Assembly (NCBI GenBank): GCA_030917225.1
Contig: JAUPVD010000476.1
Location: 1 to 12,172 of the forward strand
Direction: 5' to 3'
Length of the DNA stretch: 12,172 nt
Source: Pseudomonadota bacterium
Lineage (GTDB): Bacteria > Pseudomonadota > Gammaproteobacteria > Burkholderiales > Rhodocyclaceae
Shown piece after piece: positions 8,550 through 12,172 of the stretch (the first letter of the stretch is position 1; each line of letters opens with the position of its first letter). The position numbers were made by a program, and so were the translations under genes. Below the pieces are notes generated by a model. That model ran no database searches and was not told where the DNA came from. It saw nothing but the letters and a program-made list of their open reading frames with translations.

Positions 8550-9617
8550 ATGACCGACTTTCTGCACAGCCTTCAGAACGCACCGCCTGCCTACCAGATC
8601 GTCTACGCAGCCATCGGCCTGATCGCACTGAGCGTGATCGCCGTCATGGCAGGCATGGAGGGGCGGCATTTCCGTGGGCTGAAGCTCGGCTCGGCCTGGC
8701 TCAAGCTGCGCATCGCCTCCTTGCTGATTCTGGCTGCCGCGATCGCGGCGATCCTCGGCACGATATCGGCGGTTGGCATCAGCGGCATGGAAGCGCTGGC
8801 AGTTGCCTATCTCGCCCTGATCACCGTCGGACCGCTCGTCTATTTCGGATTGCACTGGCTGCTCGGGCGCATGCTTGGTCTGTCGCGCGGGCAGAGTGCG
8901 TGGATCGGGTTCAGCGGTCTACTCATGCTCGGCATCATTCCCGCTATAGGTCAGACCCTGATGCCCTATGCGCAGGATCTGAAGCAGTTCCTCGACGAAC
9001 GGGCCGACAATGCCATACCTGTCGCCCCATCGCCCTACAAGCAGCATGACGCAAGGCGGTTCCGTCTGCCCAACGGGGCGGAAGTGTGGGCCATCCATTA
9101 TCAGGCGCCGGCCAGCCTGACGCTGCTCCGCCTCGACATGGAGACCAGCTACGGTCGCGCGAAGGACGTAGGGGCCCATAGCAGCAGTTCCCTCTGCCAT
9201 CAGGGCACCGACGTGCACCTGTTCTGGCCCGTTGATCGCCCTCTGCCGGTGCTGCGACTATTCTGGAAAGATGCTGCCGGCACGGCGTTCCAATCCACGT
9301 GGAAAGCGGTAGCCGCTGGAGGCTCGGCGGTGGATTTCGCTATCCGCTGGGCGGAAGCTGCCTTGCAACTGCCCGTGCCGCTACCACGTGACGGCCTGTC
9401 GCTGATCTGGGAACGACCGGATAGATCTCCAATTTTCGATTCCTTGGGAGACGCCAGCTCCTCGGGAAAGTGTGCGCCGCAGACGATCGAATTGCCGGAT
9501 CGCTCCGAACTGGGGCGGCCGAACCTGCTCCGCCTGCGCACCGACCAGGCACCGCCTACCGGTTCCTCCTGGGCCGATTTCCGGCGCCCGGAAGCCGACG
9601 CGAAGGCGCCTGACTAG
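8550..9617 (+). CDS. Unrecognised four-helix membrane protein with soluble C-terminal domain
   Basis: A 355-residue protein I cannot assign. The first 140 residues contain four likely membrane segments (about 15-36, 54-78, 82-104 and 117-139). The remaining 215 residues are soluble, with beta-rich stretches (RRFRLPNGAEVWAIHYQ, SLTLLRLDMETS, GTDVHLFWPVD, PVLRLFWKD) and a polar C-terminus. The alternation of hydrophobic residues and codon use matching neighbours argue that the whole frame is coding; I see no frameshift between the halves. AGGA seven bases before ATG 8550 gives a good ribosome binding site. It may be cotranscribed with the DUF1330 gene. Its stop shares the bases CTAG with the stop of the convergent metW. 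By topology it could be an envelope sensor or anchor, but no function is claimed. Confidence 0.78.
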   Translation: MTDFLHSLQNAPPAYQIVYAAIGLIALSVIAVMAGMEGRHFRGLKLGSAWLKLRIASLLILAAAIAAILGTISAVGISGMEALAVAYLALITVGPLVYFGLHWLLGRMLGLSRGQSAWIGFSGLLMLGIIPAIGQTLMPYAQDLKQFLDERADNAIPVAPSPYKQHDARRFRLPNGAEVWAIHYQAPASLTLLRLDMETSYGRAKDVGAHSSSSLCHQGTDVHLFWPVDRPLPVLRLFWKDAAGTAFQSTWKAVAAGGSAVDFAIRWAEAALQLPVPLPRDGLSLIWERPDRSPIFDSLGDASSSGKCAPQTIELPDRSELGRPNLLRLRTDQAPPTGSSWADFRRPEADAKAPD

Positions 9618-10207
9618 CCGCGTCCCAGCCGATAGAGTGCAACGTCGGCGTTGAGGTTGGGGTCTTCCGTCACCGCCCGGCCTTCGTCGAAAAACAGGCC
9701 TTCATGCACGACGATGCCATTGTCGGCGCACAGCGCCTCGAAGTCGGCAATGGTAAAGAAACGTACGTTCGGCGAGTTGAACCACTGATAGGGCAGGGCT
9801 TCCGAAACCGGCATGCGGCCCTTGGCGATCGCCTCACGGTGGCTGCGGTGACCGAAGTTGGGGAAGGACACCACGGCCTCGTGGCCGACGCGCAACATCT
9901 CCTGCACCAGCGGCACGGTATGGCGCACGGTCTGCAGCGACAAGGACATGATGACGTGGTCGAAGGCATCGTCATCGACACCGGCCAGGCCTTTTTCCAG
10001 GTCGAACTGCAGCACGTTCACGCCGTTCCTGATGGACGCCAGCACGTTGTGCGGATCGTTATCGACGCCGTAGCCACGGATGCCTTTTTCCGCCTTGAGG
10101 AATTTCAGCAGCGAACCGTCGCCGCAACCCAGGTCAAGCACGCGCTCGCCCGGCACGATCCAGCGGGCGATGACATCGAAGTCGAAGCGGCCAAAAATTT
10201 CGGTCAT
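9614..10207 (-). CDS. metW: Methionine biosynthesis protein MetW
   Basis: A 197-residue class I SAM-dependent methyltransferase-fold protein of the MetW family. The SAM-binding motif I is [15 protein letters not shown] (about 23-37), followed by GYGVDNDP (acidic end of the second strand), [13 protein letters not shown], and [14 protein letters not shown]. MetW is a standard partner of MetX in proteobacteria and has been linked to its activity, but its own reaction is not well defined. Its ATG overlaps the metX stop (ATGA at 10207-10204), so translation is coupled. It is the last gene of the metX-metW transcript, and its stop codon shares four bases with the convergent gene. Confidence 0.95.
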
Positions 10208-11331
10208 GTTTCGATCCGATCCAGATAGGCGCCCAGAACAGCGTGATAGTGCGCATCATCAAGCAGGAAGGAGTCGTGGCCGGCGCTGCACTCGATCTCG
10301 GCGTAGGACACATCACGGCCGTTGTGCATCAGCGCATAGACGATCTCCTGGCTGCGCTCCGGCGCAAAGCGCCAGTCGGTGGAGAAGCTGGCGACGAAAA
10401 AATTGGCCTTGGCGCGCGCCAGCGCCGCCTGCAAATCACCTTCGTAGTCGCGCGCCGGGTCGAAGTAATCGAGCGCCTTGGTCGTGATCAGGTAGGTGTT
10501 GGCGTCGAAGTAGGTGGTGAAACGATCGCCCTGATAGCGCAGGTAGGACTCGATCTGGAAATCGACGCCGTAGCCATAGGAGAGCTTGTCGTTCTTCAGC
10601 TCGCGGCCGAATTTCTCGCCCATCTGGTCGTCCGACAGGTAGGTGATGTGGCCGACCATGCGCGCCAGACGCAAGCCATTGACCGGCACCACGCCGTGTT
10701 CGTAATAGTGCCCGCCGTGGAAATCCGGGTCGCTGAGGATGGCCTGCCGCGCCAGTTCGTTGAAGGCAATGTTCTGCGCCGAGAGCTTGGGCGCCGAGGC
10801 GATCACCAGCGCGTGGCGGATACGATCGGGAAACTGCAGCGTCCATTCCATGGCCTGCATGCCGCCCAGCGAACCGCCGACCACAGCTGCCCAGCAATTG
10901 ATGCCGAGGTGATCGGCGAGCCGCGCCTGCGCGGCGACCCAGTCTTCGACCGTAACCACCGGGAAATCGGCGCCATAGGGCTTGCCACTGGCCGGGTTGA
11001 GGCTCATCGGCCCGGTCGAGCCGTAGCAGCCGCCGAGGTTATTCACGCCGACGACGAAGAAGCGGTTGGTATCGAGCGGCTTGCCCGGCCCGACCAGGTT
11101 GTCCCACCAGCCGACATTCTTCGGCTCGTCGGCATAGATACCGGCGACGTGATGGCTGCCGGACAGTGCGTGGCAGACGAGTACGGCATTGCTGCCTTCG
11201 GCGTTGAGTTCGCCGTAGGTCTCATAAACCAGCTCGAAGCCGGGCAGGGTGACGCCGCCCTTGAGGGTGATCGGGGCGCCGAAAGTCACGCGCTGCGGAG
11301 TGACGACACCAACGGAATTCATTTCGTGCAT
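10204..11331 (-). CDS. metX: Homoserine O-acyltransferase
   Basis: MetX acylates homoserine, the first committed step towards methionine. The 375-residue product is an alpha/beta-hydrolase: [13 protein letters not shown] near the N-terminus, [12 protein letters not shown], the nucleophile elbow [12 protein letters not shown] with S154, and D319 (STDWRFAPE) and H352 (AGHDSFLL) completing the triad. Length is as expected. Whether the donor is acetyl-CoA or succinyl-CoA cannot be settled by eye; proteobacterial members are often annotated as succinyltransferases (MetXS). Two starts are possible: ATG 11331, with GAAAGG only three bases upstream, or ATG 11322, with the same GAAAGG twelve bases upstream. 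Neither spacing is ideal. The gene is preceded by a SAM-II riboswitch-like leader and a terminator hairpin, so it is probably turned down when S-adenosylmethionine is plentiful. Confidence 0.96.
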
Positions 11332-11340
11332 CTGCCTTTC

Positions 11341-11385
11341 AAAAACAAAAAACCCAGTCGGCGGTGCTTTCGCGCGGACTGGGTT
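11341..11385 (-). terminator. Intrinsic terminator in the metX leader
   Basis: On the minus strand AACCCAGTC (11385-11377) pairs perfectly with GACTGGGTT (11359-11351), with a possible inner GCG/CGC extension. The stem runs straight into a T tract (six T, a G, five T down to 11341). It lies between the riboswitch-like RNA and the metX ribosome binding site, which starts at the next base. That placement marks it as an attenuator for metX rather than the ptsI terminator, although it could also stop read-through from ptsI. Confidence 0.85.
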
Positions 11386-11444
11386 GCCCTCGCTTTAGCC
11401 GCATTTATTGAGCGCCCGCAAGCTGATTCGTTCAAATCGGCGCT
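11386..11444 (-). promoter_or_regulatory. SAM-II riboswitch aptamer upstream of metX
   Basis: The minus-strand RNA has the layout of the SAM-II class. P1 is AGCGCC (11444-11439) with GGCGCT (11416-11411), six perfect pairs. The loop begins GATTTGAAC, as in SAM-II RNAs. The pseudoknot P2 is TTGCG (11421-11417) with TGCGG (11403-11399), five pairs counting G-U. The segment AATAAATG just before the 3' strand of P2 and GGCTAAA just after it match the conserved AUAAAUG and GCUAAA of the class, followed by GAGGG. Compared from memory with the Sargasso Sea metX RNA, P2 positions differ in compensated ways. SAM-II RNAs bind S-adenosylmethionine and reduce expression of genes such as metX and metA, which fits the downstream gene. 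Confidence 0.88.
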
Positions 11445-11454
11445 GTAAGACTGC

Positions 11455-11483
11455 AGTTAACCGCAGCCCGGAATAATTGTCAA
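11455..11483 (-). promoter_or_regulatory. Sigma-70 promoter for the metX-metW transcript
   Basis: A perfect -35 TTGACA (11483-11478) is followed 17 bases later by a weak -10 TTAACT (11460-11455, three of six). The predicted start, near 11448, lies only about four bases before the riboswitch aptamer begins, so the positions agree well. The -35 hexamer contains the TGA stop codon of ptsI. The weak -10 keeps confidence moderate. Confidence 0.6.
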
Positions 11484-12172
11484 TTCAGATTCTGCGGCGC
11501 GACACCGTTCAGCCGATCCAGTTGTTCGCGAATTTTCCCCGGTTCCTCAAGGCGCAGCATCTTGCGCACCTGCGGCGCCAGATCAGCGATGTTCGATTTG
11601 AGTACGCGGCTCTTCACTTCCAGAATTTGTGCCGGATGCATCGAGAAGGTACGCAGCCCCATGCCGAGCAGCAGGCGTGTCAGGCTGGCGTCGCCCGCGA
11701 GTTCGCCACAGACGGAAACCGGAATGCCGGCTTTTTCGCCACTGTGCAGCGTGTGTGCAATGAGCATCAGCACCGCCGGGTGCAATGGATCGTAGAGCGG
11801 CGCCACCTGTTCGTCGGTACGGTCGATGGCCAGCGTGTACTGGATCAGGTCATTGGTACCGATGGAGAGAAAGTCGAGCCGACGCAGGAACAGGCCGATG
11901 GCCAGCGCGGCCGCCGGAATCTCGATCATGCCGCCGATTTCGATGCTGGCATCGAAGCTGATCTTGTCGCCACGCAGGCTGGACTTGGCCTGCTCGACTG
12001 CCGCCAGCGTCGCGTCGATCTCGTGCGCATGCGCCAGCATCGGGATCAGCAGCTTGACCTTGCCGTATTTCGAGGCACGCAGAATGGCGCGCAACTGCGT
12101 CTGGAACATCCTTGGCTCAGCCAGCGACACGCGGATGGCGCGCATGCCCAGCGCCGGGTTGGTCTTGACCCG
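11480..12172 (-). CDS. ptsI: Phosphoenolpyruvate-protein phosphotransferase (PTS enzyme I), C-terminal part
   Basis: Only the 3' end of ptsI is present: about 230 residues, with the frame open to the window edge. Enzyme I takes phosphate from PEP and passes it to HPr, starting the phosphotransferase chain. The visible region is the PEP-binding TIM-barrel domain: NPALGMRAIRVSL at the cut end, KLLIPMLAHAHEI, IGGMIEIPAAAL, FLSIGTNDLIQYTLAIDR and PLHPAVL. The catalytic cysteine is in VSVCGELAGD, followed by LLLGMGLRTFSMHPAQI. The phosphorylated histidine lies outside the window. It ends at TGA 11482-11480. Betaproteobacterial PTS genes often serve regulation or a few sugars rather than broad transport, but the partners needed to judge are outside the window. 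Confidence 0.97.
   Translation of the reverse strand, partial: RVKTNPALGMRAIRVSLAEPRMFQTQLRAILRASKYGKVKLLIPMLAHAHEIDATLAAVEQAKSSLRGDKISFDASIEIGGMIEIPAAALAIGLFLRRLDFLSIGTNDLIQYTLAIDRTDEQVAPLYDPLHPAVLMLIAHTLHSGEKAGIPVSVCGELAGDASLTRLLLGMGLRTFSMHPAQILEVKSRVLKSNIADLAPQVRKMLRLEEPGKIREQLDRLNGVAPQNLN

Follow-up and report, generated by a model that had tools for sequence, protein, structure and literature searches.

The SAM-II riboswitch was described by Corbino et al. in 2005 as SAM_alpha (Rfam family RF00521); many of its members had terminators, and Bordetella was among the aligned sequences (PMC1273637). Terminators are the association most frequently found with the SAM-II elements of alpha- and beta-Proteobacteria (PMC2258182). 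For the SAM-II element of S. meliloti metZ, termination of transcription on SAM binding was predicted, and in rich medium its short leader RNA becomes more abundant (PMC9373788). SAM-V has a pseudoknot and a binding pocket similar to those of SAM-II, but is a translational switch (PMC6061858), unlike the one proposed below.

Two further beta-proteobacterial elements are of concern here. Leyn et al. (2014) located SAM_alpha only in Rhizobiales and Rhodobacterales, with none in the beta-proteobacteria of their set, and described metXZ as a new beta-proteobacterial element found in 35 genomes, 30 times in front of metXW and 5 times in front of metZ. It was given a pairing scheme of its own, in which regions 1-4 and 2-6 make up a pseudoknot, region 5 is an alternative partner of regions 1 and 2, and a terminator follows (PMC4239095). 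Bp2_287 (RF02424), from a Khoo-type Burkholderia sRNA screen, lies upstream of methionine genes and was suggested by its authors to be a cis-acting element (PMC3521395), and two later papers class it as an sRNA (PMC10987360, PMC6337395). Within the literature searched, which left most subscription papers outside, the name metXZ occurred in Leyn et al. 2014 only, and no paper in its excerpted text linked metXZ or Bp2_287 to SAM-II.

The SAM-II element in front of metX

The DNA analysed, referred to as the window, is the whole stretch of 12,172 nt, and belongs to a draft genome of 509 contigs with a completeness of 74%. The original prediction of a SAM-II element before metX-metW in a Rhodocyclales-type genome is borne out, and the nearest relatives of the metX gene are those of Rhodocyclales/Rhodocyclaceae. 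The layout of the locus is given below; the terminator, the promoter-like boxes, the switching mechanism and the second copy before metH had no part in that prediction, which had found the aptamer.

11480..12172, minus strand: end of a ptsI-like phosphoenolpyruvate-protein phosphotransferase gene, truncated at the window end (TIGR01417, 240.1 bits, cut-off 341.7)
11482-11480, minus strand: stop codon of the ptsI-like gene, overlapping the -35 box
11455..11483, minus strand: promoter-like boxes judged by sequence, TTGACA (11483-11478), 17 bases and TTAACT (11460-11455)
11378..11453, minus strand: SAM-II aptamer as covered by the RF00521 match (31.3 bits), with P1 to P2 at 11444-11390
11411..11444, minus strand: P1 hairpin, AGCGCC (11444-11439) with GGCGCT (11416-11411)
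11438-11432, minus strand: start of L1, GATTTGA, by sequence
11418..11426, minus strand: 5' strand of P2, UC(A)GCUUGC, with the core pairs of U11420, U11421, G11419 and C11418 kept
11390..11399, minus strand: 3' strand of P2, GC(U)AA(A)GCGA, with the core kept and the outer pairs weaker
11372..11393, minus strand: proposed antiterminator, GCG (11393-11391) and GGGC (11389-11386) with GUCC (11379-11376) and CGC (11374-11372)
11351..11385, minus strand: intrinsic terminator hairpin AACCCAGUC...GACUGGGUU, -18.5 kcal/mol, whose 5' arm has 11379-11377 in common with the antiterminator
11341..11352, minus strand: U tract of the terminator, TTTTTTGTTTTT, by sequence
11335..11340, minus strand: GAAAGG, likely ribosome-binding site of metX by sequence, outside the aptamer
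10204..11331, minus strand: metX, homoserine O-succinyltransferase type (NCBIfam MetX_succinyl NF047916, 670.5 bits, cut-off 560)
9614..10207, minus strand: metW, after metX (TIGR02081, 231.1 bits, cut-off 189.5)

The metX reading frame has two in-frame ATG codons, at 11331 and 11322, and the true start may be the latter, since in two related loci (L034 and L036) the start coincides with the second ATG (ATGAATTCC).

RF00521 matched the leader at 11453-11378 of the minus strand over model positions 1-79 of 79, with E 1e-5 in a search of 181 bases and E 3.4e-5 when scored against the whole genome. The gathering score of the family is 36 bits and the metX leader copy lies below it, so that default annotation overlooks the element; indeed, a scan of the whole window at the Rfam gathering threshold returned zero RNA families. 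The covariance-model hit expected by the original prediction is thus missing at the gathering threshold and clear by E-value. The element was still filed as SAM-II because the cut-off reflects a curator's choice and no property of the RNA itself, and because, of the 66 genomes of the order in which RF00521 matched at E ≤ 0.001, just 27 reach it. The leader has a P1 hairpin of six pairs enclosing an L1 with GAUUU, a P2 pseudoknot joining L1 and the 3' tail, and methionine genes downstream (metX-metW here, metH at the second copy), while SAM-V was absent among the three matches to the leader stretch at E ≤ 10. With SAM_alpha it shares P1, the P2 pseudoknot, the conserved letters and the downstream methionine gene and, as in many members of that family, a terminator lies between P2 and the gene (PMC1273637); it differs from a typical RF00521 member in its score and in the beta-proteobacterial flavour of its sequence. 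The metX leader therefore almost certainly carries a SAM-II aptamer, for which binding of SAM is predicted, and judged by its sequence the element is a real, ordinary SAM-II member of beta-proteobacterial type. A score under the curated cut-off might be expected of a chance resemblance or of a decayed copy, but this is hardly credible for an element with such a genome-wide E-value and a fitting downstream gene, and its conservation in relatives already refutes it, unless the window copy alone fails to bind SAM.

Conservation and variants of the aptamer

The pairing was analysed in an alignment of 84 relatives, named A1, whose rows were collected by a regular expression demanding GATTT, GC[TA]TGC and GCTAAA, so that the invariance of these letters in A1 is by construction (87 distinct matches, with L033, L088 and L104 omitted and L021 trimmed). 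P1 was paired in 99.2% of the cells, with changes from C-G to U-A in six rows, and P2 in 96.1%. The covariation was 0.140 against 0.060 in shuffled alignments, none of 500 shuffles being as high, and 44 of the 53 two-sided changes fell on the outer P1 pair. As A1 had been collected by motif, the pair counts were repeated on two sets recruited by models, whose alignment favours P1: set 2, with 61 model matches from 59 loci fetched by RF00521 (many rows being also in A1, and two of the 61 being second copies unlisted by RF00521), and set 3, with 29 distinct rows from metX loci (the window and loci outside A1). Each of the four pairs of the canonical P2 core (UUGC with GCUAA, the U bulged) was formed in 61/61 and 26/26 scored rows, respectively; the fifth pair was formed in 51/61 and 5/26, and the outer P2 pairs were weaker. 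The letters equated here with P2 are presumably those that pair in the SAM-II crystal structure. Since most of its positions never vary, the P2 core yields conservation and not covariation.

Concerning the pattern first reported for this leader, the six-pair P1, the GATTTGA loop, AAAT and GCTAAA all stood, and the pseudoknot TTGCG/TGCGG did not. The latter is possible in the window sequence, but is not conserved: one of its C-G pairs was formed in 18/84, 21/61 and 3/26 rows of the three sets, and over the 84 relatives the pairing held in 79.5% of the cells with zero two-sided changes.

Variant aptamers occurred in several relatives. Those with a long insertion (L172:1531-1600, L037:2856-2930, L071:2860-2935, L088, L104, L111 and L063) have a hairpin-like extra in L3 (L172, L037, L071 and the Undibacterium loci) or in L1 (L063), and RF00521 gave no match to L172 at E ≤ 1. 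Bacteroidetes and marine DNA had earlier yielded a long-loop variant of SAM-II (PMC2864571). Tandem pairs of SAM-II about 100-170 bases apart were found, among the matches listed, in at least six genomes:

L185:1523-1756, tandem aptamers
L179:1527-1760, tandem aptamers
L174:1606-1409, minus strand, tandem aptamers
G029:C22, G117:C13 and G139:C6, further tandem aptamers

In L185 and L179 a terminator-like hairpin follows the first aptamer and none follows the second, an arrangement which by its sequence suggests that transcriptional and translational control act in series. Downstream of the L185 pair, an ORF of 110 aa comes first, and then a long transporter-like ORF.

Expression platform and candidate mechanism

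Upstream of the aptamer, TTGAC[ATC] was present within 70 bases of its GATTT in 59 of 64 distinct metX leaders, against 4.7% of shuffles, and the -10 boxes of these leaders were weak, with 3 or 4 of 6 consensus positions. A generic sigma-70 scan reported no promoter here because it demands 4 of 6 in each box; likewise, a generic terminator scan reported none because its loops are limited to 3-8. A hairpin with a U tract followed the aptamer in 66 of 73 metX leaders, the count covering all 76 matched metX loci except L037, L071 and L090. Of the remaining seven, four (L036, L039, L040 and L103) have by eye a like hairpin that fails the U-tract rule, and the three Undibacterium leaders among the 73 had no terminator by the hairpin and U-tract test.

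The proposed switch works as follows. Transcription would start just before P1. Without SAM, the 3' strand of P2 and the bases that follow it (GCG.GGGC) would pair with the 5' half of the terminator (GUCC.CGC), and with this antiterminator formed metX would be transcribed. With SAM, GCUAAAGCGA would be held in the P2 pseudoknot and the antiterminator blocked, so that the terminator would form; we infer that SAM binding locks the P2 3' strand and thereby frees the terminator. The predicted termination of transcription is a likeness to S. meliloti metZ (PMC9373788), which differs in belonging to an alpha-proteobacterium.

Folding of the nascent window RNA gave, at 85-95 nt, a best fold in which GCG.GGGC pairs with GUCC.CGC, that is, the P2 3' strand with the 5' arm of the terminator. 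From 100 nt on the terminator was the best fold even without SAM, the folding program being one that cannot model the pseudoknot, and the antiterminator must hence win kinetically. The stability of the complete leader was unremarkable (z -0.96, 30/200 shuffles as good).

The pairing between tail and terminator arm was then evaluated in 60 leaders, reduced to 51 distinct ones; these are related, and the fractions that follow count non-independent trials. The mean energy was -10.2 kcal/mol. With arms of comparable length taken from 144 unrelated terminators at these loci it was -7.1 (mean z -1.17), and only 14 of the 51 leaders beat 95% of those arms. Against shuffled arms the mean z was -1.89, and 31/51 leaders beat 95% of the shuffles. 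When arms were exchanged among the 51 leaders, 0/5000 permutations reached the observed mean; when the exchange was confined to two groups of tail sequence (22 and 29 leaders), 410/5000 did as well, so that the covariation of tail and arm is chiefly one change between the groups.

Three other pairings were considered and set aside. The GC-rich P1/P2 segment, a GC-rich aptamer segment having been speculated to be the antiterminator strand by Leyn et al. (PMC4239095), gave no signal (z -0.05, with 4125/5000 exchanges as good) in a test without a working negative segment. Upstream, GGGCTG (11467-11462) could by eye pair with the terminator arm, but precedes the inferred start of transcription. 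The pairing of GCCGAUUU with AAAUNCGGC, to which the alternative pairing of metXZ as described corresponds in the window leader, holds in most pairs, but one pair is broken in 35/84, 36/61 and 21/27 scored rows.

The aptamer could instead control translation, with the SAM-bound P2 blocking ribosome binding and the terminator being constitutive or setting a basal level. Indeed, the metX SAM-II that was crystallised acts on translation (PMC6061858, PMC10907184), and the terminator that follows SAM-II at S. meliloti metA was predicted to be unresponsive to SAM (PMC9373788). Such control is unlikely here, for the probable ribosome-binding site at 11340-11335 comes some 50 bases downstream of P2, past the terminator, terminators follow nearly all metX aptamers in the count given above, and most SAM-II elements are termed transcriptional (PMC6061858, PMC2258182). 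Control of metX-metW by transcription termination, off at high SAM, is probable from the leader sequences, and so is the explanation taken as a whole, a SAM-II of beta-proteobacterial type that would switch metX-metW off in this manner. The particular antiterminator, GCG.GGGC with GUCC.CGC, is put forward from the folding models with less assurance, as the somewhat likely form of the switch.

Distribution, targets and probable other names

A second SAM-II is present in the same genome (L001:1508-1572, equal to C189:6103-6167), with 39 bits, over the cut-off, and 81 bases before the start of metH; by eye it has its own hairpin and U tract. Two weak matches in the genome (E 0.3 and 3.4) are attributed to chance because a search at E ≤ 10 gave matches in 14/14 control genomes.

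At E ≤ 0.001, RF00521 matched in 66/150 genomes of the order with a top score of 52.5 bits, 27/150 having a match over the cut-off, and in 0/14 controls. At E ≤ 0.01 it matched in 75/121 genomes of the family, 22/121 over the cut-off, and again in 0/14 controls. A clade model built from the 84 relatives and run without the control genomes matched in 109/150 genomes of the order at E ≤ 0.001. Around metX, a SAM-II model match at E ≤ 1 was obtained in 76 of 80 loci of relatives (two partial, one truncated where its contig stops), the clade model having been built in part from these same 80 loci, which are mostly of Rhodocyclales and also of Gallionellaceae, Noviherbaspirillum and Undibacterium. 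Four of the 80 (L049, L051, L106 and L113) had no SAM-II match at E ≤ 1, and 4 of the 19 metX loci submitted to Rfam passed the gathering threshold. The Propionivibrio metX leaders L049:2840-3005 and L051:2840-3005 have another, repeat-like sequence instead of SAM-II. It had been claimed that this locus extends the context of SAM-II; this cannot be maintained, beta-proteobacterial SAM-II having been in print since 2005-2009 and matches being widespread in the same family, as counted above.

Downstream of 67 distinct aptamers from the order and family, the first gene was of the Abhydrolase_1 family (MetX type) in 22 cases, Cys_Met_Meta_PP (MetZ type) in 19, S-methyl_trans (MetH type) in 14, SAM synthetase in 1 and PALP (threonine ammonia-lyase) in 1, at a family threshold of E ≤ 1e-10; about 10 of the 67 match nothing or an off-frame piece. 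Two of these targets deserve a description. The SAM-II at L012:1508-1571 lies before metK (TIGR01034, 621 bits), which would place SAM synthetase itself under feedback by SAM. The L167 aptamer (1501-1565) precedes a gene for threonine ammonia-lyase (TIGR01127, 413.8 bits, cut-off 378.75); such a target is unusual and would connect SAM to the threonine-isoleucine branch.

The metXZ element, compared by its text description only, is like the window element in clade, targets, pairings and terminator, and differs in that its authors did not recognise SAM-II (PMC4239095). From this description metXZ appears to be the SAM-II element under another name. The converse, in which the beta-proteobacterial element forms a class of its own that differs in ligand or fold and merely resembles SAM-II, could appeal to the lack of SAM_alpha in the beta-proteobacteria of Leyn et al., to the separate pairing scheme of their new element (PMC4239095) and to the window copy being under the gathering score. 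It is very improbable, since RF00521 itself recruits such leaders at the frequencies and scores reported above, P2 retains its core pairs, and the genes downstream are metX, metZ, metH and once metK.

As for Bp2_287, RF02424 gave 15.2 bits in the window against a cut-off of 70, with E 0.15 and on the plus strand, antisense to metX. It was placed 30 times in 29/150 genomes of the order, once over its cut-off, and at least 28 of these 30 placements have a SAM-II hit on the other strand (27 enclose a listed model hit, to which G119 is added). All 20 loci fetched by RF02424 have an opposite-strand SAM-II model hit inside the match, full-length in 19 and partial in L172, the very copy over the cut-off, whose aptamer has a long L3 insertion. 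Read as its reverse complement, the RF02424 model is a SAM-II leader together with the terminator, a link seen in the relatives, and the sequences suggest that a riboswitch was here modelled on its wrong strand. Unlike the window element, Bp2_287 is on the other strand, is typed as an sRNA gene and has a Burkholderia-type aptamer with a long L3 insertion.

Taken by itself, another SAM-II is not news; the value lies in two side results, the proposed antiterminator and the probable union of three names under one element. The RF00521 cut-off excludes most SAM-II copies in the order (27/150 genomes over it against 109/150 by the clade model), and this cut-off helps to account for the apparent spread of the element over other names (27, 66 and 109 of 150 genomes by the three counts). 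The orphan metXZ gains a candidate ligand, SAM, and the antiterminator is a concrete and testable proposal for SAM-II. It is fairly likely that SAM-II is the common switch of the beta-proteobacterial methionine pathway (metX, metZ, metH and once metK), hidden by the Rfam cut-off and known under three names (SAM_alpha, metXZ and Bp2_287), which would work by a transcription antiterminator made by the 3' strand of P2 together with the adjoining downstream bases, whose two partners changed together between clades.
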